A stretch of DNA of 34,645 nt. Origin: a virus. The DNA lies in the IMG/VR virus record IMGVR_UViG_3300027659_000109, positions 1 to 34,645 of that record; one strand, written 5' to 3'. Shown in pieces: positions 10,125 through 34,572 of the stretch (positions within the stretch are counted from its first letter, which is position 1; each line of letters begins with the position of its first letter). The position numbers and the translations under genes are program-made. The notes beneath the pieces were generated by a model that was not told the origin of the DNA, ran no database searches, and saw only the letters and a program-made list of their open reading frames with translations.

Positions 10125-10361
10125 TTAAATGGCGGAGGATGTCAAATAATTACGCGCGGAGTCACAGCATCCGCTAATTCTTGTTACGCCGTCAGGGTGT
10201 GATTTTGCATGCATCTCATGTAGGCGTCTGGCATGCTCCTCGGTGTTTTCTCCAAGATGGATGCATGCCACACAGTTTCCCAGAAATGGTTTGCCCCCGT
10301 AAAATCCAAGCCCACACGAAATATGCCCACGTGCGGAATTTTGAAAATCGCATTTATCCAT
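10125..10361 (-). CDS. Cysteine-rich small protein in the tail-tip region
   Basis: 78 residues with six Cys: one in MDKCDF, then the block SCGLGFYGGKPFLGNCVACI, and CC near the end. The block with two Gly-Gly and the C-x2-C pair recalls small Cys-rich phage proteins with CxxGLYGGxPxxGxC patterns and may bind a metal ion such as zinc. It overlaps the preceding gene by eight bases and is followed by the large fibre gene after one base. Function is unknown; a role in assembling the tail tip is possible given position and the Cys-rich neighbour. Confidence 0.62.
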   Translation of the reverse strand: MDKCDFQNSARGHISCGLGFYGGKPFLGNCVACIHLGENTEEHARRLHEMHAKSHPDGVTRISGCCDSARNYLTSSAI

Positions 10362-11952: not shown

Positions 11953-14346
11953 TTAGTATGCTAGTGCTTGCTGTGGAAGTTTCGGTTCGATTTTTGCGAC
12001 AAGGTTTTTGATTTCGAGCACAAGCGTTTCAAGAGGTTTCTGTTTGTCCTTTTCCATGTCTCGCTTTGTCTTTCCGTCCTCGCCGGGCCTGTCCACTTCC
12101 GGTTGACCGTCCCTTTTTTTCGACCTTCCAAATTTGTCTATGACTTCAGCCTTGCCCTCTTGAACGTCTTTGACGCGCTGGGCAAATTCGGAGCCTGTTT
12201 CTTTGGCCTGCTGACTCAGGCCGAGAGATTTCCCAATATCGTACATGCTGCGGGTGTCGCGGCCTGCTCCTTGCCCTCGAATACTCGACTCGACTTCGCT
12301 TTGACGGATTTGCTCGGCGGTTCTTTTTGCTGACTCAAATTGCCCTTTTTGGATTTGCTTCTCAGCGCGTTGTTGCAAGCGCCCGCCCTTGTCGATGCTC
12401 TGCTGCGATTCAGCTTCCGCAATGCTTTTCAGGATGCTGGCTGATTTTGATAATTCTTTATTCATGCCTGCCTGCTCTTGGCGAGCGCGGGCGATTTCAT
12501 CTGCAAATGATTTTGCCTCCGACTTGCCCATGCCTGCGTCGATGGCCTGCTTTAGCGCGGCGTTGTAATCCTTTTTATACTGCACCGCTTTTTCCTCTTG
12601 CTCGTTTCCGCTGATCTTTGCCTTTAGTGACTGCAGGTCAAGTTCGAGATTTTCGCGGAGATCGGCCTGGCGTTCGGCTTCCTTGGCGGCAGCTTCTTTT
12701 TCTTTTTCGACGCGGACGGTCTTGATGTTGTTGATTTGCTCTTCTAGGTTCTTGGAGAGATCGAGCTGTTTGTTTAAGTCTCCGATCCCCTGAGTTTGTT
12801 CGTCGATTTTTCCAGCGATAGAGTCGGCATACGAATAGTTGCTCTCCAGCAGTGGCGTGGTGCCAGTTATCTCGCTGTTGAAATTCGACCATGCAGAGCT
12901 GATCCCGTCGATGGCAGGCTTAAAGTCTGAGTTGAGATTAAATGCCGATCCAATTTCCGCGCCTGTTTCTTTTGTTTTTTCCCCAAGCTCTTCAATTTTT
13001 CCGGCGACTTTTTTAGAGTTTGCACCTAAGTCTGCGATTTTTTGCACCCCTGCTTGAGTAAGAGTAACAAAATCAGTAACGCTTAAACCTGCTTTTTTTG
13101 CACTTTCAGCTAAACGATTGGATTCGTCGATGTATGTTGTAGTACCGGTGGTAAGGTCGCTAAGAGGACCGACTACGGATGCGACCATTACGCCTAAAAG
13201 ATCCAAAGCTCCGGTAGCCTTGCCAGTTGAATTTGCCGTTTCTGCGTCGCCCCTTGCCGCTGCCGAGGTGACTTTTGCATATTCGCGATATTCTTTTATG
13301 AGTTCACTTAATTTTTTTTGCGATTCTTCAAGAATGGGATTAAGAGACGATCCTATTTCTTGTCCCAATCCAGCGGCGTCCACCTTTTCCATGCTAGATC
13401 CTAAGCCACTCACGGCAGGAATAACCTCGCTTAAAATACCGGCAGCAAATGCCGCCATCTTCCCTTTTACGGCATCGATTGTTTCGCCCGCTGCGTCAAA
13501 CGTCGCAGCGTTTTCGTTCATCACGCGTTCCAAGGAGCCGACTTTTCCGCGAGCATCATCCAACGCCGGTGAAAATCCTATAAGAAGTGGGAGCAACTTA
13601 CCGCCAAGCTTGTCACCAAATACTTCGGATGCCATCGCTGCTCTCTGAGTAGGGTCTTGAATCGCCGCGATCTTGTCGGCAAAAATCTTCATCTGCTCGG
13701 TTGGCGTCTTGCCTTTAAGTTCTGCCAACGAAATCCCCAGGTCGGTCATTGCGGTGGCTTGTTTGTCTCCGCCGTTGGCCGCATCCTGCATGAAGTTTTG
13801 CAGCTTATTTATGACGGTTCCCACCATCTCGGCTCCGAGTCCTGCGTTTTTAAAAGCCGTTTCCAATACGAGCAACTTACCCGCTGCCTCGCCTGTTCGT
13901 GCGCTGAGTTCGCTTAAACGTCCGCCAAGATCAAGCGCGTCACCAAATCCCCGAGCCACCGATTGCGCGCCGCTAAATGCAAGGTTAATCGCCTTGTTAA
14001 ATCCAGAAGCGGCGATATTTCCGAGCGTAAATGCGCTTGTAATTTTTGCGAATGACGCGTCAAATAATCCGCCAGCATTTTCGGATTTGTTGCCAACGTC
14101 CTGCAATTCTTTCCCAAGCCTATCAATTTTGGGCGAGGTGTCTGAAGCTGCACCCCCCATCGACCTGAGTTTTTTCTCCATGCCCTCAAGCTGCTTGGTG
14201 CGGCTAAGAGTTTTTTGAAACTCATCGGCGGACATCGCCGTTGTCCTCTGCTGCGTGTCAAGTTCGGCGAGTTCCTTTTGGACGTTCTTCAACGTCTGCG
14301 ATAGTCCCGCGTCCTTTGCTCCAAATTCGACTGTAACGTCCGCCAT
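11953..14346 (-). CDS. Tape measure protein
   Basis: 797 residues, the longest protein in the window. The N-terminal part (1-75) is coiled-coil (QKELAELDTQQRTTAMSADE), followed by an Ala/Gly-rich hydrophobic region (about 95-140) and a region with typical tape-measure phrases: FGDALDLGGRLSELSARTGE, KTPTEQMKIFADKIAAIQDP and FGDKLGGKLLPLL. A second hydrophobic stretch (LLGVMVASVVGPLSDLTTG) is near residue 380, and the last 250 residues are charged coiled coil. The protein sets tail length and helps DNA ejection; at the common ratio of about 1.5 angstrom per residue it predicts a tail near 120 nm. It is flanked by the chaperone genes and minor tail genes as expected. Confidence 0.93.
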   Translation of the reverse strand: MADVTVEFGAKDAGLSQTLKNVQKELAELDTQQRTTAMSADEFQKTLSRTKQLEGMEKKLRSMGGAASDTSPKIDRLGKELQDVGNKSENAGGLFDASFAKITSAFTLGNIAASGFNKAINLAFSGAQSVARGFGDALDLGGRLSELSARTGEAAGKLLVLETAFKNAGLGAEMVGTVINKLQNFMQDAANGGDKQATAMTDLGISLAELKGKTPTEQMKIFADKIAAIQDPTQRAAMASEVFGDKLGGKLLPLLIGFSPALDDARGKVGSLERVMNENAATFDAAGETIDAVKGKMAAFAAGILSEVIPAVSGLGSSMEKVDAAGLGQEIGSSLNPILEESQKKLSELIKEYREYAKVTSAAARGDAETANSTGKATGALDLLGVMVASVVGPLSDLTTGTTTYIDESNRLAESAKKAGLSVTDFVTLTQAGVQKIADLGANSKKVAGKIEELGEKTKETGAEIGSAFNLNSDFKPAIDGISSAWSNFNSEITGTTPLLESNYSYADSIAGKIDEQTQGIGDLNKQLDLSKNLEEQINNIKTVRVEKEKEAAAKEAERQADLRENLELDLQSLKAKISGNEQEEKAVQYKKDYNAALKQAIDAGMGKSEAKSFADEIARARQEQAGMNKELSKSASILKSIAEAESQQSIDKGGRLQQRAEKQIQKGQFESAKRTAEQIRQSEVESSIRGQGAGRDTRSMYDIGKSLGLSQQAKETGSEFAQRVKDVQEGKAEVIDKFGRSKKRDGQPEVDRPGEDGKTKRDMEKDKQKPLETLVLEIKNLVAKIEPKLPQQALAY

Positions 14347-16604: not shown

Positions 16605-16654
16605 ACCTCGCAAAAACTGTCAACTCAGTTGAGGAACTCGGCGAAAATCTCACT

Positions 16655-17125
16655 CTAAAGCAGTCCGGTGTGAACGGTCACGGATACGCTCCGCAAAAAG
16701 TGCCGATCGGTTGTCGAGAGTGCAACCGGCCCGTCTCGCAACACGCCGTAAACTTGGCAGGATTTTGGCTCAATAGCATTCAGCTTGTCCACGATTCCAA
16801 AGACATCGTGAGTCACGCACAGTAATTCTGCCCAGAGATCTTCGAGAGTTTGCGCGTTTGCGTCGTCTGCTTGGACGGCCAAAACAACGTCAATCGTGAA
16901 TTGAAAAATCGCGCTGTTCGTAATCGACTCCGACTGCCGAGTCGCCTTTACAAAGCACGCAGGCAACGTCATCGCGGCGAAGTTCTCCGACGATGTGACG
17001 GTCAAGTCATTCTGAAATTCAGCCTGCAAATATCGGATGAACGCATCCGTAATTGCCTTCTCAAGCGTGCGCGTCGTAGTCGCTGCCTGGCTCTTCGGTT
17101 CGGGAGTTGTGGAGAAGAAAATCAT
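16655..17125 (-). CDS. Tail terminator / completion protein candidate
   Basis: 156 residues starting MIFFSTTPEPKSQAATTTRT. It has a helical N-terminal half (LEKAITDAFIRYLQAEF), a central beta segment (AIFQFTIDVVLAVQADDANA) and a C-terminal strand pattern (HFLRSVSVTVHTGLL). Order and size fit the Z or U position of lambda (tail completion or tail terminator), immediately before the tail tube candidate. No diagnostic motif is visible. It is coupled to the preceding gene by ATGA (17122-17125). Confidence 0.58.
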   Translation of the reverse strand: MIFFSTTPEPKSQAATTTRTLEKAITDAFIRYLQAEFQNDLTVTSSENFAAMTLPACFVKATRQSESITNSAIFQFTIDVVLAVQADDANAQTLEDLWAELLCVTHDVFGIVDKLNAIEPKSCQVYGVLRDGPVALSTTDRHFLRSVSVTVHTGLL

Positions 17126-17430
17126 TTATTCACATCCTGGAGCGCGAAGTCCACTGAGACGGCATCCTGTGCCAGCTCCGCAGAGACGACGCGGAAGCTG
17201 GCAGCGTCAATCGCCACTACGTCGCCAAGGTTGATTTGCTGTGTGACGGCATTGTAAGGAGCGGTGATAACCATCGCAATTTGCGTCATAAATCCGCCGT
17301 CTCCGACGCTGTTCTCGCAACGAAATGTTGTTCGATTGGCCGAGAATGTAGAGCCTTGAAACGTGACGGTGATCGGTAGTTCCCCAAGGACGGCGGCAAA
17401 GTCGGCAGCGAAATAAGTGGCAAGGCTCAC
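17122..17430 (-). CDS. Head-tail connector candidate (gpFII-like position)
   Basis: 102 residues with a GTG start at 17428-17430. It reads MSLATYFAADFAAVLGELPI then VTFQGSTFSANRTTFRC and, near the end, DVVAIDAASFRVVSAELAQD: two beta stretches with a short N-terminal helix, the pattern of small head-tail joining proteins of the gpFII/gp_FII-like type. The location between head genes and tail genes, after the accessory cassette, agrees. No motif makes this certain. The start lies 15 bases after the stop of the GT32-like gene. Confidence 0.58.
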   Translation of the reverse strand: MSLATYFAADFAAVLGELPITVTFQGSTFSANRTTFRCENSVGDGGFMTQIAMVITAPYNAVTQQINLGDVVAIDAASFRVVSAELAQDAVSVDFALQDVNK

Positions 17431-17445: not shown

Positions 17446-18141
17446 TCAAATCAGCCCCACGCTCTTGCAGAGTCGGTGATATTCGCTGCCCCGCGTTGGC
17501 GTTTCCTTGCTCGTATTGTGCGTTGCATTGCTCCAGTGGATGATGTCGTAGGGCGTCGCCGCCGGATGCGTGTATGGAGAGCCTGCCACGCCGCCGCAGT
17601 CGAAATAGTTGTCGAATGTTTTGAACTGAATCCCGCTGCGTTGAAGGCCGTGGATCATTGCGATCATCGCATCGTGCCAGTCGCAACCGGCCATGCCGTT
17701 TTTCAGCATGTCGCCGATGATATCAGACATCTCGGCGGCATAGGCAGAGCCTTTCGGAATGGCCATGACAACGGGTGAAATCATCGAGAGCCACGGTGTG
17801 AACGTGTAGTCCTCCGCGACGATCTTCTTTGTAACGGCAACGTCCATTTGCACCCAGATTCCGCCGTGCTCGTGAAGGGTCTTGAGAGCGAAGTAGTCGC
17901 TCCAATGCGCAAACGAGCCGATGCCGCCGTTTGGAATGCCGGTGTGCGGATTGCCTGCGAATCCGATTGGCTGAACGTAGTCCTTCGGGACTTGGCGCAC
18001 TTCCACCAAGTCGGGAACGCCAGCGACTTTTTGATTGGTCCAGAGAACCGGCTTGTGACCGGCCTCAAGCAAGAGCTGAAGCGTGAGTTTTTCCATGAGG
18101 CCAAGCTTCGGGCCTATCCAGACTGAGTGTGTCGTGCTCAT
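17446..18141 (-). CDS. GT32-like glycosyltransferase
   Basis: 231 residues from ATG at 18139-18141, four bases into the preceding stop (ATGA). The segment FAHWSDYFALKTLHEHGGIW (77-96) matches the hallmark of GT32 enzymes (mannosyltransferase OCH1 and capsular sugar transferases), where S-D is followed by the helix and GG-I-Y/W-x-D-x-D. Here the acidic pair reads Q98-M-D100, so the first Asp of the usual DxD is missing, which may change metal or sugar binding. Later parts contain CGGVAGSPYTH and a Trp (IIHWSNATHNTS) as in the family. A glycan-decorating role, on virion or host surface, is inferred. Confidence 0.72.
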   Translation of the reverse strand: MSTTHSVWIGPKLGLMEKLTLQLLLEAGHKPVLWTNQKVAGVPDLVEVRQVPKDYVQPIGFAGNPHTGIPNGGIGSFAHWSDYFALKTLHEHGGIWVQMDVAVTKKIVAEDYTFTPWLSMISPVVMAIPKGSAYAAEMSDIIGDMLKNGMAGCDWHDAMIAMIHGLQRSGIQFKTFDNYFDCGGVAGSPYTHPAATPYDIIHWSNATHNTSKETPTRGSEYHRLCKSVGLI

Positions 18142-19301
18142 TTGCGGGCGAGGACGGTGAGGCCGTTGCAGTTTTCGTAATGTTCCGCGACTCTCCAATG
18201 CGCGTTGTCGCGAATAAACTCTTGGATCGCGAGATTGATGCCGGTTCCGTTGTCCTCCCCGAGAACGCCGAAGGCTACGGTGTCGTGAAACACGAGGTAT
18301 TTGCGCGCCTGGTTGCCGTGCTTTTCAAGTTCGCCCTTCACCTGTGCGTAGGTGTGCAAGGTATCGATGAAGAGCAGGTCGGTCAGCTCGATTGTTTCGG
18401 CATCGAGCGTGCTGCCCTGCTGGAACGTCCAATCTATTGCGAGCTGTGAGCTGATTCCGTGGACGTTGAAGAAGTCGTGAAGATCGTAGCTGCGGAGCTT
18501 CGCGTTTGGCTTGTTTGAGAGTCCGTGAAGAAATGAATAAGTGGACATTCCTGTCCTCACTCCGAACTCGGTGACGTGCTCGCATTGGCGCGCGAGCTGC
18601 GCAAGGCGAAGCATGTGCTCGTTGATGTCGCCTGCGATGGAGCGTGAGCGGTTGAAGATGTTGATGAGCGGCCACTGCGCAACGAAAGCATTGACGCCGT
18701 ATTGATATGCACGCTCGGAGTTTTGCAGGTCAACGATGGCGTCAGTCGGGCGCGTGCCGTTGATCGGGTGATCGTGCTGCCATTTTAAGCCCTTCACCTG
18801 CAAGACAGGCGCTTCAAGCAGTGCCCGCACGGAAAAATCATTGTCGCAAAAAACGCCAAAATAAGACGGATGGAAAACGTATCCGCGCTTGTTGTAGAGC
18901 GCCCGAGAGAGAACCGGATGGCACATGAGGCCGTCTTCACGGAGCGAGTCGGGCACGTAGCATGCCCACTCTTCACTGCCTGCGGGGAGTTTTTGCAGCT
19001 CTTCATCCCATGCCTGCGGCGGTGTGAGGTCGTCGGCAATGACGACGAGGATGTCGCCGGATGAGATTGCGGCGGCGGCGTTCCAGTTTGCAACGCTGGA
19101 GGATGCCCACTCGGGCGGCGGGACGCTGTTAGCAACATTCTCTTCACCAAAGGCCAAATGTGACTCGGTATCGTCCGACTGAATGCCGAAAATGTGTTCG
19201 ACATTCTCGGGATTTGTCGCGCGCTCAAGCCAGATTTTTTTTGTGGCTAGGGCGCGGACGGGTGTGTTTCGGGTTGCGTGTATTAGGCTGATTTTTTTCA
19301 T
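18138..19301 (-). CDS. GT-A-like glycosyltransferase fused to SAM-methyltransferase domain
   Basis: 387 residues with two domains. Residues 1-200 are a GT-A fold like the second half of the preceding protein: ISLIHATRNTPVRALATKKI, VEHIFGIQSDD (35-44) and GDILVVIADD (82-91). Residues 220-387 read as a class I SAM methyltransferase: motif I TEFGVRTGMST (244-254), then LLFIDTLHTYAQVKGELEKH (309-328) and KYLVFHDT (334-341), the pattern of Methyltransf_24/CmcI-type enzymes. A sugar may be attached and another group methylated by the same polypeptide. It is coupled to both neighbours through ATGA overlaps. Substrate unknown. Confidence 0.72.
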   Translation of the reverse strand: MKKISLIHATRNTPVRALATKKIWLERATNPENVEHIFGIQSDDTESHLAFGEENVANSVPPPEWASSSVANWNAAAAISSGDILVVIADDLTPPQAWDEELQKLPAGSEEWACYVPDSLREDGLMCHPVLSRALYNKRGYVFHPSYFGVFCDNDFSVRALLEAPVLQVKGLKWQHDHPINGTRPTDAIVDLQNSERAYQYGVNAFVAQWPLINIFNRSRSIAGDINEHMLRLAQLARQCEHVTEFGVRTGMSTYSFLHGLSNKPNAKLRSYDLHDFFNVHGISSQLAIDWTFQQGSTLDAETIELTDLLFIDTLHTYAQVKGELEKHGNQARKYLVFHDTVAFGVLGEDNGTGINLAIQEFIRDNAHWRVAEHYENCNGLTVLARK

Positions 19302-20983
19302 GGATTTGTTGGGTTTTTGGTTAGTGTTTCAAAGATTTTCTTTGCGCGTTCGCGCTCAATTGGATCGCTGCACCGCTCATGTGTGGCGTCCTTTGGAACA
19401 GGCTCAAAAGCCGGATGGTGGTGAACGAAAACAACGTCACGAGCGTCCACAATCGTGCCCGCTTTCTCGGCACGAATGGTGAACTCTGCGTCCGAGAATT
19501 GGTTTTTGAAATCGGGGTGAAAGAGTCCGTGTTTGTCATAGAATTTTTGCGTGCAAATCGCCATCGGCAGGAGTTCGTCAGTGCGGTATCCATCCGAGAT
19601 GCGGAGAACCTTCTCGGAATTGATGTCCAAGCGGCTTTCAAGCATGTCGTCCCAGCCAGGCGGACATTCAAAGTCGTCGGAGAATTGCACGAGGATGTCG
19701 CCGGTGCTCACACTAGCCGCAAGATTCCACGCTCCCACTGAGCCGCCGTCGATATCTTGGCAGACCCCGCAGAAGCGTTGCAAAACGGCTGCGGAGGCGT
19801 CGTCTGAATCGACCGCAAAGATGTGTTCAACGCGCTCCGGCTTGTTTGCGCGTGAGAGCCATAGGTTCATGTTCTGAACCGCTTGCAATGGCCTCCCGCG
19901 CGTGGCGTGAAGAAGTGAGATGCGCGGGCGCGGAGCGGCGTTGAGAACCTGCATTTCGAGATTGAATGCTTCTTCCTTCCGGCCTGCCAGCCTGAGCGCC
20001 CAAGCGCGGAGTCGCTTGGCTTTGACGCCGTAGTACTCGGCCTTGTGCGTCCACTGCGTGAAGGAGGGGACGGGTATCTTCTCCATTTCGTCGAGAAGCG
20101 CGAGAGACTCAACCGGCTTGCCTTCGTCGAGAAGAATGGACGCTTCCAGCGCGACGGCTTCGCGACGTGCGGGGTCGAGTTTGCGCGCGGCCTGAGCAAA
20201 GCGAAGCGACGATTCGCCATCCGTCATGTTGCTCATGTTCATCAGCGTTTCGTACTTGTGGACGAGATCCAGATCCTTCATGGCGATAGCCTCCGCGCCG
20301 TAGCGCAAGGACAGGTCTCGCTGTCCGGTGATCATTTTTTCGTAATGCAGATAAAACTTCCAATGCGGGGCGAATTGATCCTGCCATTCCAGGATGCGCT
20401 GGTTGCGCTCGTTGCTCTTGCGCTGGCCTAGTGGCGGCATGTGGTGGATTTCCAAGTCACGCCGCATGTAAATCTTGATCGTCTTCGTCGGGTGGACGTT
20501 CTCATGCACCGCCCGCCACCAGTATCCGGTGCGGTAGCGAAAGAACCGCTCGCGCGGCGCGCGCTTGTGCTGCTCGGGGATAACGTAATCACTGAGTATC
20601 CAGTCACACTCTGCTGGGCAATCGCGGAGCGCCTTCAGCGTAGGCTCAACCATGTTGTCCTGGAGCACGTCGTCACAGTCTGCCCACATAACCCAGCCGC
20701 CTTCGCCGGTCAGGTCGTAGGCTTTTTCAAATGCCACATTGCGCGCGGCGGCGAAGTCGTCGAGGTGCGGCCAATGCCGACAGAGCGGGGAGTTGCGATA
20801 TTCTCCGACGTGACAGCCGAGGCTCTTTGCGATGTTGAGAGTCGCGTCGGGTTCAAGTGCTCCGACGGCGCGGATGATGACGACATCATCACAGATTTTT
20901 TGCAGGGATCGGACGCACCGCTCGATGCGCTCGGCTTCGTTGCCGCATATCAAGCCTGCGACAAGGCGATTTTTTTGGTTCAT
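19298..20983 (-). CDS. Two-headed glycosyltransferase: GT2, TPR-like region, second GT-A domain
   Basis: 561 residues. Residues 5-190 form a GT2-type domain: LVAGLICGNEAERIERCVRS, DDVVIIRAVGA, then GGWVMWADCDDVL with the DxD at Asp102-Asp104. Residues 200-350 are helical TPR-like repeats (RFAQAARKLDPARREAVALE). Residues 353-540 form a second GT-A domain with ISLLHATRGRPLQAVQNMNL, VEHIFAVDSDD and GDILVQFSDD (429-437). This second domain is clearly homologous to the N-terminal half of the next gene product. It probably transfers sugars in two steps. The start is 21 bases after the methylase stop. Confidence 0.75.
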   Translation of the reverse strand: MNQKNRLVAGLICGNEAERIERCVRSLQKICDDVVIIRAVGALEPDATLNIAKSLGCHVGEYRNSPLCRHWPHLDDFAAARNVAFEKAYDLTGEGGWVMWADCDDVLQDNMVEPTLKALRDCPAECDWILSDYVIPEQHKRAPRERFFRYRTGYWWRAVHENVHPTKTIKIYMRRDLEIHHMPPLGQRKSNERNQRILEWQDQFAPHWKFYLHYEKMITGQRDLSLRYGAEAIAMKDLDLVHKYETLMNMSNMTDGESSLRFAQAARKLDPARREAVALEASILLDEGKPVESLALLDEMEKIPVPSFTQWTHKAEYYGVKAKRLRAWALRLAGRKEEAFNLEMQVLNAAPRPRISLLHATRGRPLQAVQNMNLWLSRANKPERVEHIFAVDSDDASAAVLQRFCGVCQDIDGGSVGAWNLAASVSTGDILVQFSDDFECPPGWDDMLESRLDINSEKVLRISDGYRTDELLPMAICTQKFYDKHGLFHPDFKNQFSDAEFTIRAEKAGTIVDARDVVFVHHHPAFEPVPKDATHERCSDPIERERAKKIFETLTKNPTNP

Positions 20984-21004
20984 GTTTCTGCATGGGGCGC
21001 GATG

Positions 21005-21559
21005 TCAAAAATTTGACCACTGATCTGCCATAGCGTCGGCAATCCCTTGAAATGTTCGGCTTCGCTCTTTCCATCGATTAGGACCCGGAGACATTTTATG
21101 AATGCGAGACTCTCGCCCTTCGACAATGTTTGTCGGCACAATCTTCGGAAGGTTTTTCAGCCAAAGGCAAGTCGCCTTTGTCTCGCCATGACCGAATTGC
21201 CAAGGCTGAATCACTTGGTCGGGCCTGCGGATGCGGGAAGATATTATAGAAACAGGATTTTCCAACGCGATACGGTCAATCGGAGCGGCGAGCAACAGCC
21301 GCACAAAGTCGAGTGCCTCGACCTGCTCAGTTTGTTTATATTTAAACCAACGCGCACCACTTACCGCGAGATGAGTGCATGGCGGATGTGCGATCATTAA
21401 ATCCCATCCGTCATTCAAGACTTCCCGGACATCGCCGCAAATGTGATTGCCAGCCGTTTCGCTTGCAAGAATATCACAAGACCACGCATCCCATCCACGC
21501 TTCATAAAAGCATCCCTCACCGTTCCGCTATATTCGCACGCAATCAAAATTCGTTTCAT
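21005..21559 (-). CDS. Cytosine-C5 DNA methyltransferase-like protein
   Basis: 184 residues. ILIACEYSGTVRDAF (4-18) is a SAM-binding motif I of the Dcm type, AHPPCTHLAVSGARW (57-71) contains the catalytic Pro-Cys pair (Cys61) and IALENPVSII (98-107) the ENP/ENV motif. It lacks a large target recognition domain, so it is much shorter than typical Dcm enzymes; phages often encode this compact form. It could modify phage DNA against restriction. It starts the accessory cassette, right after the capsid terminator. The ATG has no SD. Whether it methylates cytosine or modifies another base cannot be told from sequence. Confidence 0.78.
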   Translation of the reverse strand: MKRILIACEYSGTVRDAFMKRGWDAWSCDILASETAGNHICGDVREVLNDGWDLMIAHPPCTHLAVSGARWFKYKQTEQVEALDFVRLLLAAPIDRIALENPVSIISSRIRRPDQVIQPWQFGHGETKATCLWLKNLPKIVPTNIVEGRESRIHKMSPGPNRWKERSRTFQGIADAMADQWSNF

Positions 21560-21603: not shown

Positions 21604-21633
21604 AAAAAACCCGCTCCTTGCGAGAGCGGGTTT
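21604..21633 (-). terminator. Rho-independent terminator after the major capsid gene
   Basis: On the minus strand AAACCCGCTC (from 21633), a 7-base loop and GAGCGGGTTT form a perfect 10-bp stem, extended by further T's (six T's from 21609 to 21604). It lies 20 bases after the capsid stop and before the methylase gene, so it separates the head operon from the accessory cassette. Confidence 0.87.
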
Positions 21634-21652: not shown

Positions 21653-22612
21653 TTACAGTCCGGTCGTGATGCGGATGATCGAGGAGCCGTCGACAACCTT
21701 CTCGGATACGTGCTGACGCACGCGGAGGATGTTCGAGCGGCGGGCTTCGTCGCGGTAGGTCTCGGAGACGAAAGGCACTGGGCTGTCTGCACCCCAGAGG
21801 ATCGTGCGGCCAAAGCCACCGGCGGCGAACTCACCGCCAACTGTGTTGGCGAGTGCAAGGTAGCTGTCACCCCAGACGAATCCGCCTGCGTAGGTTTGAC
21901 CCTTCTTGGCAGTGTTGCGAGGAGCGCGGCCCACGAGGACTTTTTCCACGCCCACGGCCTGAGCAACTTCTTGCTCGGAGAGGAGGCGGGTGGAGTTCGT
22001 GGCGACTACGCCGAACATTTGGTTTTGAACCTTAGTTGAGCGGCGGACGCGCTCGAAGAGGACTGCGGACATAACGAGAGTGTTAGGAAGCACGCCATAC
22101 TTGGCGAGTTCCAACTTGCCTGCGGCAACGTCGGCCGGAAGGTCGAACGATGTGATGTTGGCTTCAGTGTAGGCGGCGGTTGCACCGGCTGCAGAGATGG
22201 CTGTGAGGCCGTTCGCTGCGTAGGTGAGCGAGGCAACGCGAAGCTCGTGGCCGATTTGAATCTGGCTCAGGAGCATGTCGGCAACGGCAACCTCAACGTC
22301 GAGGAAGCGGGCGAGGTCGCGCTGAGTTGCATCGGGGAGGACTTCCTCAAGACCGTACTCGGTAGTGGCGAAGGTGTCCGATGTGAACTTGCGGCCAACG
22401 CGGGGATATGCAGAGCCAGCGGCGATCTTGGTCGCGTCGTCGTTAAGTGCCTCAGATGCGCCCAGGTTGATTTTCAGATACTCGCCAGAGCGAACGTCTG
22501 CAACGTAGATCGGCATGACTTCGGCACCGATGAAAAGGTTTTGCTTGTTCGAGCGGCCCTCGTAAACGGCCTGTGCGATGTCTCCGCGAATTGTGGTAGT
22601 GGTGAGTGACAT
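21653..22612 (-). CDS. Major capsid protein
   Basis: 319 residues, HK97-fold type. The sequence begins MSLTTTTIRGDIAQAVYEGR, with a helix-rich first half (FLDVEVAVADMLLSQIQIGH) and later typical capsid phrases: LVMSAVLFERVRRSTKVQNQ, KVLVGRAPRNTAKKGQTYAG, FVWGDSYLALANTVGGEFAA and, near the end, YRDEARRSNILRVRQHVSEK. This pattern is common in P2/lambda-like major head proteins encoded after a decoration protein gene. Position fits: protease-scaffold, decoration-like, capsid, then terminator. It should form the icosahedral shell. The start ATG at 22610-22612 lacks an SD despite an expected very high expression, a clue about the host. Confidence 0.92.
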   Translation of the reverse strand: MSLTTTTIRGDIAQAVYEGRSNKQNLFIGAEVMPIYVADVRSGEYLKINLGASEALNDDATKIAAGSAYPRVGRKFTSDTFATTEYGLEEVLPDATQRDLARFLDVEVAVADMLLSQIQIGHELRVASLTYAANGLTAISAAGATAAYTEANITSFDLPADVAAGKLELAKYGVLPNTLVMSAVLFERVRRSTKVQNQMFGVVATNSTRLLSEQEVAQAVGVEKVLVGRAPRNTAKKGQTYAGGFVWGDSYLALANTVGGEFAAGGFGRTILWGADSPVPFVSETYRDEARRSNILRVRQHVSEKVVDGSSIIRITTGL

Positions 22613-22646: not shown

Positions 22647-23000
22647 TCAGAGTCGTACTGCGTACTCGATGATGTCGCCGGTCACGCCGGAGTTGATTGC
22701 GGTGCCGAGAGTCACGCCAGAGGTGACGAGCGTTCCGACAATCACGCCGCCGGTTGTGGCGAAAACCGAATTGCCAGCGGTCACGGGACCAGGCGAAACG
22801 ATTCCGAATTGAGTTGCCTTGAAGAGTTTCACTTCGCCAACGCCAGCGGCAGCAACGTCGTCTTGAAGGACGCCGATGACTTCGGAGGCGGTTACGAGTG
22901 CGGCGGCTGCATTGTCGCCGGAGCAACGGACGAGCGTGTTGCCTGAGAGCGCGGACGCGAATGTGAACGAGCGGAATGGGATGTCAGTTTGGGATGCCAT
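22647..23000 (-). CDS. Head decoration-like protein (gpD/DUF2190 type)
   Basis: 117 residues, Ala/Val/Gly/Thr-rich and beta-dominated, with FTFASALSGNTLVRCSGDNA, EVIGVLQDDVAAAGVGEVKL, GNSVFATTGGVIVGTLVTSG and TAINSGVTGDIIEYAVRL. The pattern (short strands, VIGVLQDDVAAG, G-D-x-I-x-Y/V-R-L end) matches small capsid-stabilising or DUF2190-like proteins that sit between protease and capsid genes. It probably trims or stabilises the expanded capsid. Twelve bases lie between the protease stop and this start. Confidence 0.75.
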   Translation of the reverse strand: MASQTDIPFRSFTFASALSGNTLVRCSGDNAAAALVTASEVIGVLQDDVAAAGVGEVKLFKATQFGIVSPGPVTAGNSVFATTGGVIVGTLVTSGVTLGTAINSGVTGDIIEYAVRL

Positions 23001-23012
23001 ATTGTGAGGTGA

Positions 23013-23873
23013 TTAGAGGTTGTGGAGTTGGTTGGAGTCGCGAAGGGCGATGTATTCAGCAGGGTGATTCAACATCGCGAATTTGATTGCGGCGGTCTTG
23101 GAGCCGAGTTCAGCGGTTTTCGCTTCAATCAAATTCTTCAGATCAAATTTGACTTCGGCAGGAACTTCGGCGGCAGCGGATGCCTTCATGGGAGCTGCGC
23201 CAAAGTTTGAAATGATGGTGTCGAGTTTGGCTTCGAGCTTGGCCATTTCAGAATCCTTCATTGGCTCTTCCTTCATCTCTTCCTTTTGCTCTTCGGGAGC
23301 GGCTTCCATTGCCTTCTTGTAATCGCCAAAAGCTGATTCAAGGGCGCTGAGACGGGAGATGATGTCCGCGAGGCTTGGCTCGTCTTTGGACGGTTCGATT
23401 TCGATTTTGGGTGCGTCTTCCATTTGCTTGGAAATTTTGTCAACTGGCTTCGCTTCGAAGCTAAATAGGCCGGTGGGATTTGCTGCGGGTGTCTGCACCA
23501 AATCGGCAGAATAGAGTTCTTCGCACGAGGCGAAACTCTTGCCGTTGATTTCTCGCACAGGCCCGCTGAATGCGATGGATATGCCGAATGTGTCGGGGAG
23601 TTTCTCGGCGATTTCTAAGACGTAGGCGCGCCGGTCTGCGTTTTGCAGAAGGTTCAAATCTCCGAGGAGTTTTTCTCCGACGATGCGGAAGTTATCGACG
23701 AATCCGATGATGTCTTTGATGCCCGCACCGTGATCCAGATTGACTTTGACCCCGCCAGCGTAGGTCTCCGCGCATGCCTTGACCTCGCGCAATGTCTGCG
23801 CGTCCACGTAGAGTCCGTGGCCCTTGGCCTCGCCGACTGATATGATGGAGACTGCTTCTATGACGTCGCTCAT
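23013..23873 (-). CDS. Prohead protease fused to scaffold-like tail
   Basis: 286 residues. Residues 1-140 look like an assemblin-type phage protease: VNLDHGAGIKDIIGFVDNFR (catalytic His48 candidate), FGISIAFSG (96-104, Ser99 candidate) and ELYSADLVQTPAANPTGLFS (119-138, third residue possibly Asp124). From about 150 to 240 the chain is acidic coiled coil (LADIISRLSALESAFGDYKK, then EEQKEEMKEEPMKDSEMAKL), as in scaffold segments. In lambda, C and Nu3 share this arrangement through overlapping genes; here one polypeptide seems to do both. The protease would cleave itself and scaffold after shell assembly. Residue roles are inferred from family patterns. Confidence 0.82.
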   Translation of the reverse strand: MSDVIEAVSIISVGEAKGHGLYVDAQTLREVKACAETYAGGVKVNLDHGAGIKDIIGFVDNFRIVGEKLLGDLNLLQNADRRAYVLEIAEKLPDTFGISIAFSGPVREINGKSFASCEELYSADLVQTPAANPTGLFSFEAKPVDKISKQMEDAPKIEIEPSKDEPSLADIISRLSALESAFGDYKKAMEAAPEEQKEEMKEEPMKDSEMAKLEAKLDTIISNFGAAPMKASAAAEVPAEVKFDLKNLIEAKTAELGSKTAAIKFAMLNHPAEYIALRDSNQLHNL

Positions 23874-23897
23874 GCCGAGGCGGCGATGTCAAAAAAA

Positions 23898-32705: not shown

Positions 32706-33283
32706 GGCTTTTCGAGTTCGTCTTTTATTTCGGAGAGGATTTGTTGCGTGCGCTCGTGCAGCTTCTTTCGCAAGGTCACTTCGTCGAGCCCTGCCAGCGC
32801 CCCGCTTGCGTCATTGACAAGCGCGGCGAGCTTGGCGGTGAATACGGCTCCGATCCGGATGCCGTCTTCGCGCACTTGAGCTTTCGGCTCGTAGTCGCCC
32901 TTCAGAATCGCGAGTTGCATTTCCAGCTTCTCGCATTCGAGGAGCGCCTTCTTTGTCCGTGCTTCGTTGTAATCAGCCGGTGTGCGCTCTTCCAAAAACT
33001 TTTTGCGCCAGGCGGTCGCCGATTCTACGCTGTCCATCGGCATGCCCTGCTTTACCATTTTGTGGATGTTCGGCTGTGTCATGCCCCACAGCTCCGCAAG
33101 CTCGGCCTGTGTCAGTTTCTTTTTTCCGTCACGCTGCTCTGCAAACTCTGCCGCGATCTTCGACTCTCGCGCCGTCAGCGTCTTGCCGTCCTTCAGCTTT
33201 TGCAGGATGTTTTTAAACTCGGCTTCGCGGATCTTGCGCGAGAGGTCGGGAGCGGGTTGTGGTGGTGGGAATTTCTTTTTCAT
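32702..33283 (-). CDS. Terminase small subunit, Nu1-like
   Basis: 193 residues from ATG at 33281-33283; an upstream start in the same frame would read an Arg-rich segment inside the methyltransferase gene, so it is rejected. After a Pro-rich N-terminus there is a winged-helix type HTH (KKKLTQAELAELWGMTQPNI, then HKMVKQGMP) as in Nu1, and then a helix-rich segment with TKKALLECEKLEMQLAILKG and DYEPKAQVREDGIRIGAVF, a hallmark of the Nu1 family. The HTH would recognise the packaging site and the helices oligomerise. The start overlaps the methyltransferase stop (33280-33283). Confidence 0.87.
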   Translation of the reverse strand: MKKKFPPPQPAPDLSRKIREAEFKNILQKLKDGKTLTARESKIAAEFAEQRDGKKKLTQAELAELWGMTQPNIHKMVKQGMPMDSVESATAWRKKFLEERTPADYNEARTKKALLECEKLEMQLAILKGDYEPKAQVREDGIRIGAVFTAKLAALVNDASGALAGLDEVTLRKKLHERTQQILSEIKDELEKP

Positions 33284-34572
33284 GCCAGGCGCTTGGGTTC
33301 TTTGCCGGTGGCGTCGGCCCAGCGCTGGATTGCCACGGCGACATAGGCGGGCGAGATTTCGATGGCGCGGCATTTGCGGCCAAGCTGCTCGCATGCGATG
33401 ATGGTTGTTCCGCTGCCGCTAAAGGGTTCGGCAATAATGTCTCCAGGATTTGTCATTGCTTGCGCGTAATCTTCAACAATGCGAATTGGAAACATTGCTG
33501 GGTGAGAGGTATCTAAATTTCGCGCTAATTGCGGAGGAACTCGTTCTATCGTTCCAAGCTCCCGCATTGGTCTAATTTTAATTGCTCCTTTCTTTTTCGT
33601 AGTTCCGTCTCTTCCTCGGTCATAAACATGGGAATCCACGCTTCCAGCATCTTTGTTTGGGATTGTTGGAATCAGGTCTTTTGGCTTTTCTCCAAAAATA
33701 AAAATCCATTCATGCTCTATCGGAAACATTGCAGTTAGTTTTCCAACTGCTCCATTTTGCCCTTGATCCCATACATTCCAACTTAACAATTTATATCCGC
33801 ATGCCTTTGCAGCGGAAATGTATGTCTGCCAATATTCGACAACCTCTCCTTGGTGTCTTTTTATCCCAAGATTTACAACTTGATAATTTGCGTGAGGCTT
33901 GAACGCAGTTATAAATTGACAAAGGTTTTCTACAGAAAGATCACCGCCTTTATATTCACGCATATCCGCATAAGGGGGTGATGTAAATAAAAGCTCCGCC
34001 TTCTCTCCGCCCATGAGCTTTGCCACATGCTCTGGGATCGTGGAGTCGCCGCACAGAATCCGATGCTCTCCAAGCTCCCAAAGCTGCCCAGGCTCGACGC
34101 CCCACTTGGCGCGGAGTTCGTCGGCCTTATCGATCTGCGGTTCAGCGTCAGCGTCTGAGGTTTCGGGTTCATCTTCCATGTCGAGGCCAGCGAGGTCTTC
34201 CGAGCCAAAACCAATGCTGTCCAGATCAAAATCAAGGTCTCCAAGGTCGGCAAGTTCCAACTTTAAAATCTCTTGATCCCACCCACCGCCGATCTCCGCC
34301 AGCCTATTGTCCGCGAGGATGTAGGCGCGGCGTTGCGTGTCCGTAAGGTGTCCGAGCCGGATGCACGGCACGTCCTTCAGCTCCAACTTCTGCGCTGCCA
34401 TCACGCGACCGTGCCCGGCGATGATGCCGTTGTCTTTATCGATGAGCACCGGATTGTTAAATCCAAACTCGCGGATGCTGCCTGCAAGTTTTGAGACCTG
34501 CGCGGCATCGTGCTTCTTCGCATTTCGTGCGTAGGGGATGAGTTTTTCGGTCAAGATTTGTTCGATCTTCAT
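33280..34572 (-). CDS. ParB-like domain fused to DNA adenine/N4-cytosine methyltransferase
   Basis: 430 residues. Residues 1-110 are a ParB/Srx-type domain: IREFGFNNPVLIDKDNGIIA followed by GHGR (53-56) and HLTDTQRRAYILADNRLAE. The middle to end is a DNA methyltransferase with motif IV TSPPYADM (197-204) and, near residue 390, motif I EPFSGSGTTIIACEQLG and the EISPAY acidic motif. The order motif IV before motif I is the beta class, which methylates adenine N6 or cytosine N4. This fusion is common in phages upstream of terminase genes. It probably protects phage DNA or marks packaging DNA. The start is coupled to a 16-codon ORF (ATGA). Confidence 0.88.
   Translation of the reverse strand: MKIEQILTEKLIPYARNAKKHDAAQVSKLAGSIREFGFNNPVLIDKDNGIIAGHGRVMAAQKLELKDVPCIRLGHLTDTQRRAYILADNRLAEIGGGWDQEILKLELADLGDLDFDLDSIGFGSEDLAGLDMEDEPETSDADAEPQIDKADELRAKWGVEPGQLWELGEHRILCGDSTIPEHVAKLMGGEKAELLFTSPPYADMREYKGGDLSVENLCQFITAFKPHANYQVVNLGIKRHQGEVVEYWQTYISAAKACGYKLLSWNVWDQGQNGAVGKLTAMFPIEHEWIFIFGEKPKDLIPTIPNKDAGSVDSHVYDRGRDGTTKKKGAIKIRPMRELGTIERVPPQLARNLDTSHPAMFPIRIVEDYAQAMTNPGDIIAEPFSGSGTTIIACEQLGRKCRAIEISPAYVAVAIQRWADATGKEPKRLA

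Follow-up and report, generated by a model that had tools for sequence, protein, structure and literature searches.

Gene organisation and predicted products

We report that an uncultivated virus of bacteria, IMG/VR virus record IMGVR_UViG_3300027659_000109 (the window, i.e. the whole stretch analysed, 34,645 bases), carries among its head genes three consecutive genes, A, B and C, with predicted glycosyltransferase and methyltransferase domains. They lie on the minus strand, as do all features of the locus given below, in the order protease-like gene, small gene, major capsid gene, DNA-methyltransferase-like gene, A, B, C and head-closure-like gene, with a tape-measure gene further on; the cassette is hence bounded on one side by the major capsid gene, with an accessory gene in between, and on the other by head-completion genes. 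A (19298..20983, 561 amino acids), B (18138..19301, 387 amino acids) and C (17446..18141, 231 amino acids) are joined by an ATGA overlap at both the A/B and B/C junctions. C starts at the ATG at 18141, overlapping the stop codon of B; the call of the open reading frame (ORF) tool, 17446-18198, takes an upstream TTG. The original prediction, made from the sequence alone, described three coupled genes with GT2/GT-A/GT32 signatures and a methyltransferase, flanked by the major capsid gene and head-tail completion genes; this holds, the genes being intact and coupled as described, with the refinements that C is only GT32-like and that an extra gene (21005-21559) lies between the capsid gene and A. 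All three genes are under purifying selection, the ratios of nonsynonymous to synonymous substitution rates (dN/dS) being 0.055-0.089 (A), 0.035-0.13 (B) and 0.059-0.144 (C) in pairs with estimable dS, several such dS values being close to saturation. Since these ratios are low in all three and the position is kept in scores of relatives, the cassette is not a product of chance. A membrane-like segment was not found in A, B or C (KD19 maximum 1.34).

The N-terminal domain of A (residues 1-200, 20384..20983) matches Pfam Glycos_transf_2 (1.9e-13, 51.2 bits against a curated cut-off of 23.3), and A also matches PHROG 13126, beta-1,4-glycosyltransferase (2.2e-11). When a profile of 19 relatives of A was searched against all PDB sequences, the only glycosyltransferases matched were GmaR (7.9e-8), SunS (6.3e-5) and the GT2-like 7msk (0.071), and GmaR and SunS were again top-ranked when the N-terminal domain was searched alone. 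These two modifiers of protein and peptide outrank all other PDB glycosyltransferases, and A is probably an initiating protein glycosyltransferase. A TPR region had also been proposed; the TPR-like region of A (residues 219-298, 20090..20329) is backed by a weak match of profile residues 219-299 to designed TPR proteins (0.012-0.019, the best value falling in this region), while A on its own gives only a weak hit to TPR_16 in Pfam (0.76). The C-terminal third of A is homologous to the N-terminal half of B (35% identity, 1e-32), and the GT-A domain that it holds (residues 353-556, 19316..19927) is a duplicate of the N-terminal domain of B. In one relative (L120:8403-10748; loci of relatives are given L numbers) A has an extra C-terminal domain of ~220 residues, which is GT25-like by eye and for which Pfam gives GT2 only.

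Protein B is predicted to combine in one chain a GT-A domain and an O-methyltransferase domain (residues 210-387, 18141..18674). Residues 2-188 match PHROG 14945, glycosyltransferase (5.6e-10), and residues 245-332 match Methyltransf_24 at 7e-5, with 24.1 bits falling short of the curated cut-off of 26.3; with an E limit of 0.1, the same family is detected in 18/18 members of the B family, the best of them at 1.1e-6. In a structure model of B (predicted local distance difference test, pLDDT, 77.9; predicted template modelling score, pTM, 0.67) the first half gives fold matches to WrtF (Z 17.8) and chondroitin polymerase, and the second half has an O-methyltransferase fold, matching MeT1 (Z 17.0 over 168 residues, root mean square deviation 3.0), MycF (15.7) and SpnH (15.2). 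According to the model the C-terminal domain is thus of the class I O-methyltransferase fold, and since the fold agrees, B, considered as a metal-dependent sugar O-methyltransferase, misses only the strict Methyltransf_24 family label. Residues D313, H316, Y318, H339 and D340 of the methyltransferase half are invariant in 18 sequences.

C scores 0.002 against Pfam Gly_transf_sug PF04488 (19.2 bits, below the cut-off of 23), and this family matches 15/18 members of the C family (best 1.1e-4). The model of C (pLDDT 86.4, pTM 0.88) is of the GT-A fold, with YeGT, glycogenin, SetA and LtpM as the nearest structures (Z 13.5-14.5), such that structure prediction, one of the checks that had been suggested, returned the expected folds for both B and C. 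The DXD site of C reads Q98-M-D100 and is invariant in 18 sequences. Membership of GT32 was considered and rejected on account of the score below the cut-off and the DXD not being intact, and C is referred to as GT32-like only. Profiles of B and of C gave no useful match against PDB sequences.

Conservation of A and exchange of the genes behind it

Relatives were selected by the capsid protein alone. A was present within 2.2 kb after the capsid gene in 63/63 of these loci with at least 300 bases downstream, its start usually lying ~85-110 bases past the capsid stop. Two further scans were seeded by the capsids of L131 (49% identity) and L067 (43%). L131 is a contig of a Betaproteobacteria metagenome-assembled genome, the sole cellular match, which is short and could be a co-binned virus; in its lineage an A-type gene follows the capsid gene in 8/8 usable loci. 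The L067 lineage provided 42 loci with at least 1.2 kb downstream, where A is normally oriented in 40, partial in one (L249) and absent from one (L231). In L254, A was apparently absent at first and was recovered by tblastn, which in L249 placed the C-terminal part of A in inverted order on a contig that is apparently rearranged. A of the L131 and L067 lineages is 24-35% identical to A of the window. The DxD-type acidic motif (D102, D104 and D105) is retained in 48/48 sequences, and these residues together with E145, R146, W155, H160, E161, H181, R193 and N194 are each kept in at least 47/48, mostly in all 48. As the loci are related by descent, the counts reflect retention and not independent events.

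More distantly, phiSHP3 and TJ1 (capsid ~25%) have no annotated glycosyltransferase after the capsid gene, and for this reason the locus resembles an old insertion that became fixed in the group. A description of the cassette as a variable moron was rejected for A (63/63); it is upheld solely for the genes that follow A and the insert ahead of A. It had likewise been suggested that synteny in related phages would tell whether the cassette is variable; A turned out to be near-invariant in presence and position, while the genes that follow vary by clade.

By clustering, B was found in 23 loci and C in 22 loci, all capsid-near relatives, and both genes are clade-specific. A second clade has after A a gene for a 194-residue DUF5672 protein and one for a 220-residue GT9-like protein, often behind a short coiled-coil repeat gene; the GT9-like label was read from sequence motifs, without a Pfam hit, and profiles of the 220-residue and DUF5672 proteins gave nothing useful. 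The repeat gene between A and the DUF5672 gene (L155:6803-7108, L156:3067-3753 and similar loci) encodes RERDEARE-type coiled-coil repeats in variable number and ranges from 98 to 228 amino acids. In L120 the genes after A are one for an FkbM-type methyltransferase (8.4e-10) and one that is GT2-like (1.5e-4), in L151 a sulfotransferase-like gene (sequence motif only, without a Pfam hit) and Methyltransf_23 (2e-16), and in L131 GT2-like genes together with a HAD hydrolase (4.3e-23) and a nucleotidyltransferase (NTP_transferase, 1.2e-5). In a large part of the L067 lineage, small genes come directly after A and no B or C is recognised. These gene contents have the pattern of glycan synthesis in which the first step is fixed and the later ones can be exchanged.

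A lone homologue of C (64%) is present in L067 itself (L067:7980-8699), on the opposite strand and near the terminase gene; given that the L067 capsid is only 43% alike, this suggests that C was transferred laterally, apart from the rest of the locus. L007 and L079 represent both ends of one contig of 36,876 bases (IMGVR_UViG_3300043416_000189). A is cut by one end of it and B lies close to the opposite end, and because both ends fall in the cassette, this contig may be a circularly permuted, nearly complete genome of ~37 kb. The genome of a phage from Manatee Spring (L187, MW202497.1, 3472-7791) also has a GT2 gene that resembles A (27.6% over part of its length); there it adjoins groeL- and glycosyltransferase-annotated genes and lies between the terminase and portal genes.

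Expression signals and flanking genes

The major capsid (major head) protein gene (21653..22612, phrog_1005 6.5e-32) is followed by an intrinsic terminator (21607..21633) with an 11-pair stem and a T-run, and a terminator-like hairpin is present in the capsid-A spacers of 69/69 unique relatives compared to 1/69 after shuffling. The element TTGACA is located 25 nucleotides before the start codon of A (21003..21008) and was found 23-25 nucleotides before it in 45/55 unique upstream sequences. It recurs 18-19 nucleotides before the protease-like gene (56/57) and 18-22 nucleotides before the gene starting near 16613 (32/35), and was not found before the capsid gene or B; in some relatives TTGACA precedes C inside the coding sequence of B, and these cases were excluded from the counts. 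In the window, TTGACA stands ahead of several structural genes at near-constant spacing from the start codon, on the minus strand at 21003-21008, 23887-23892, 16618-16623 and 10140-10145. An ordinary -35 box was rejected, since the spacing would place the -10 box on the start codon, and TTGACA may belong to some other kind of late promoter. Because a terminator precedes A and TTGACA is shared with late genes, A-B-C would seem to open a late-type transcription unit of its own, with a signal common to other structural genes; both the late timing and the level of its expression are deduced from the sequence.

Upstream of the capsid gene lie the protease-like gene (23013-23873) and the small gene (22647-23000). 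Directly after the cassette comes the head-closure-like gene (17122..17430), with a weak match to phrog_161 head closure (0.026) and a conserved position, and the tape-measure gene is at 11953-14346. The accessory DNA-methyltransferase-like gene (21005..21559, phrog_757 6e-69) has a counterpart in only few relatives and is optional, outside the core. The capsid-A gap serves as a slot in which unrelated accessory genes insert, for the most part DNA-modifying ones, such as a Mom-family gene (L123:9038-9664, 1.3e-34), a C5 DNA methylase (L098:9106-10260, 1.9e-29) and, by sequence, a homing-endonuclease-like gene (L243:6574-7287). Elsewhere in the window (33280-34572) a 430-residue protein combines a ParB-like N-terminal part and a DNA methyltransferase (phrog_498 9e-102, phrog_620 1.8e-49).

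Proposed function and alternative explanations

We suggest, with a probability of roughly 0.7, that A-B-C is a virion-glycosylation locus in which A begins a glycan chain on a protein of the virion and B and C extend and methylate this chain. Late in infection, the TPR-like region of A would bind the virion protein, for which the adjacent major capsid protein is the likeliest candidate, the GT2 domain would attach the first sugar to a side chain and the second GT-A domain of A would add another. The GT-A domain of B could then add a further sugar to be O-methylated by its C-terminal domain, and C would add one more, with a short, partly methylated oligosaccharide made from host nucleotide sugars as the product on the particle. 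We infer a virion target, as had originally been predicted, because of the position, the remote homology and the precedent described below; the enzyme classes, the fixation of A by the capsid gene, the late-gene element and the folds of B and C support the idea, as do the replacement of the distal genes by other glycan-type enzymes and the absence of membrane-like segments. The major capsid protein is probably the acceptor. We likewise infer that the acceptor is a protein, its identity, the order of the steps and the benefit, which might be shielding, adsorption or stability.

Several points weigh against this interpretation. The virion glycan is predicted from genes, and A was assigned from its sequence. 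The similarity of A to GmaR and SunS is remote, and the PDB has few GT2 enzymes of such type. The QMD at the DXD site makes the activity of C less certain, and A is not strictly required for the particle, since L231 is without it.

One alternative, which we consider unlikely, is that A-B-C glycosylate the phage DNA as a protection against host nucleases, with the DNA-methyltransferase-like gene as part of the same DNA-modification set. DNA glucosylation is the usual role proposed for phage glycosyltransferases (e.g. PMC10202952; PMC12619734), and the capsid-A gap often holds DNA-modification genes, as with phrog_757 in the window, the Mom-family gene in L123 and the C5 methylase in L098. These genes are, however, optional inserts and A is fixed, the nearest solved relatives of A act on proteins, and A sits with late genes. 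Moreover, no gene for an acceptor base, hydroxymethylated or other, was seen among the window genes scanned against PHROG, where the record may be incomplete and some small ORFs were unscanned. It is also improbable that the enzymes act late in infection on glycans of the host surface, for instance against superinfection or readsorption of progeny, as the original prediction had offered as a second option. Glycosyltransferases of temperate phages can alter host O-antigen, and the N-terminal half of B also resembles the polysaccharide enzymes WrtF and chondroitin polymerase. Yet the absence of membrane-like segments from all three proteins led us to reject serotype conversion and leaves alteration of the host surface without support; no flippase-type gene lies alongside, and such a system would not be expected to sit among late structural genes and next to the capsid gene in three capsid lineages.

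The kinship of A with GmaR and SunS could also be taken to mean that the target of A is a small peptide or a regulatory protein of the host, in the manner of SunS, which modifies a bacteriocin, or GmaR, which is an antirepressor, with the genes behind A serving that product. We regard this as very improbable: no precursor-peptide gene is evident beside A, and neither the fixation beside the capsid gene in three lineages nor the exchange of glycan-tailoring genes downstream would be explained. Returning to virion glycosylation, we put forward tentatively, at a little less than even odds, that capsid glycosylation is near-universal in a broad group of uncultivated phages. A GmaR/SunS-like initiator would then be tied to the place next to the capsid gene in three capsid lineages or more, and exchange by clade of the genes that follow would give the particles glycan types like bacterial surface serotypes.

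Taken together, the data point to a known idea, virion glycosylation, in a new and unusually fixed form, at a locus that is kept throughout the lineage, has an initiator that can be recognised and tailoring genes that can be exchanged, and belongs to phages without an isolated close relative. This provides a candidate rule for spotting glycosylated virions in metagenomes, namely the presence of a GT2-TPR-GT-A gene immediately downstream of the capsid gene. The locus also points to the likely acceptor and yields soluble candidate protein glycosyltransferases that could be tried outside the phage.

Comparison with known systems

Glycosylation of the phage virion is documented for a small number of mycobacteriophages. 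In serotype-conversion (gtr) systems a membrane-bound transferase acts with a flippase, which differs from A, B and C with no membrane-like segment. YeGT, glycogenin, SetA and LtpM have the fold in common with C at only 7-14% identity, and C is shorter with QMD at the DXD site. MeT1, MycF and SpnH are sugar O-methyltransferases with the same fold as the C-terminal half of B; they stand alone in natural-product or polysaccharide pathways, whereas the domain in B is fused to a glycosyltransferase.

SunS, the peptide S-glycosyltransferase of prophage SPbeta, resembles A in having a GT2 domain with a helical continuation (matched at profile residues 5-234); it acts on a bacteriocin peptide, and no such peptide gene was seen near A. 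GmaR, the best PDB match of the A profile, is the Listeria flagellin O-linked N-acetylglucosamine (O-GlcNAc) transferase and antirepressor with glycosyltransferase and TPR domains, the latter proposed to bind flagellin (PMC9638930). As in A, its GT2 domain is N-terminal, and TPR follows where A has the TPR-like region, but its C-terminus is the antirepressor region where A has a second GT-A domain, and it is a host gene for flagella while A is a phage gene beside the capsid gene.

The closest precedent is found in the cluster O mycobacteriophages, where an O-methyltransferase and three glycosyltransferases are encoded among the head genes and modification of the capsid has been proposed (PMC4351075). 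According to the citation of Freeman et al. 2023 in PMC11600133, these enzymes modify the capsid and the tail tube, and the modified capsids elicit a weaker neutralising antibody response. A search with A, B and C (tblastn, 1e-3) gave no match in 50,697 phage records, among which the presence of cluster O was not separately checked. In Corndog the genes (gp35-gp38) are for an O-methyltransferase, two glycosyltransferases and an N-acetylglucosaminyltransferase; they are separate single-domain genes between the portal and protease genes, in contrast to A and B, which are fusions, and to the position of A-B-C after the capsid gene. What the two cassettes share, in gene content and place, is an O-methyltransferase and several glycosyltransferases amid head genes, and by analogy the function of A-B-C is likely to correspond to that of the cluster O cassette.

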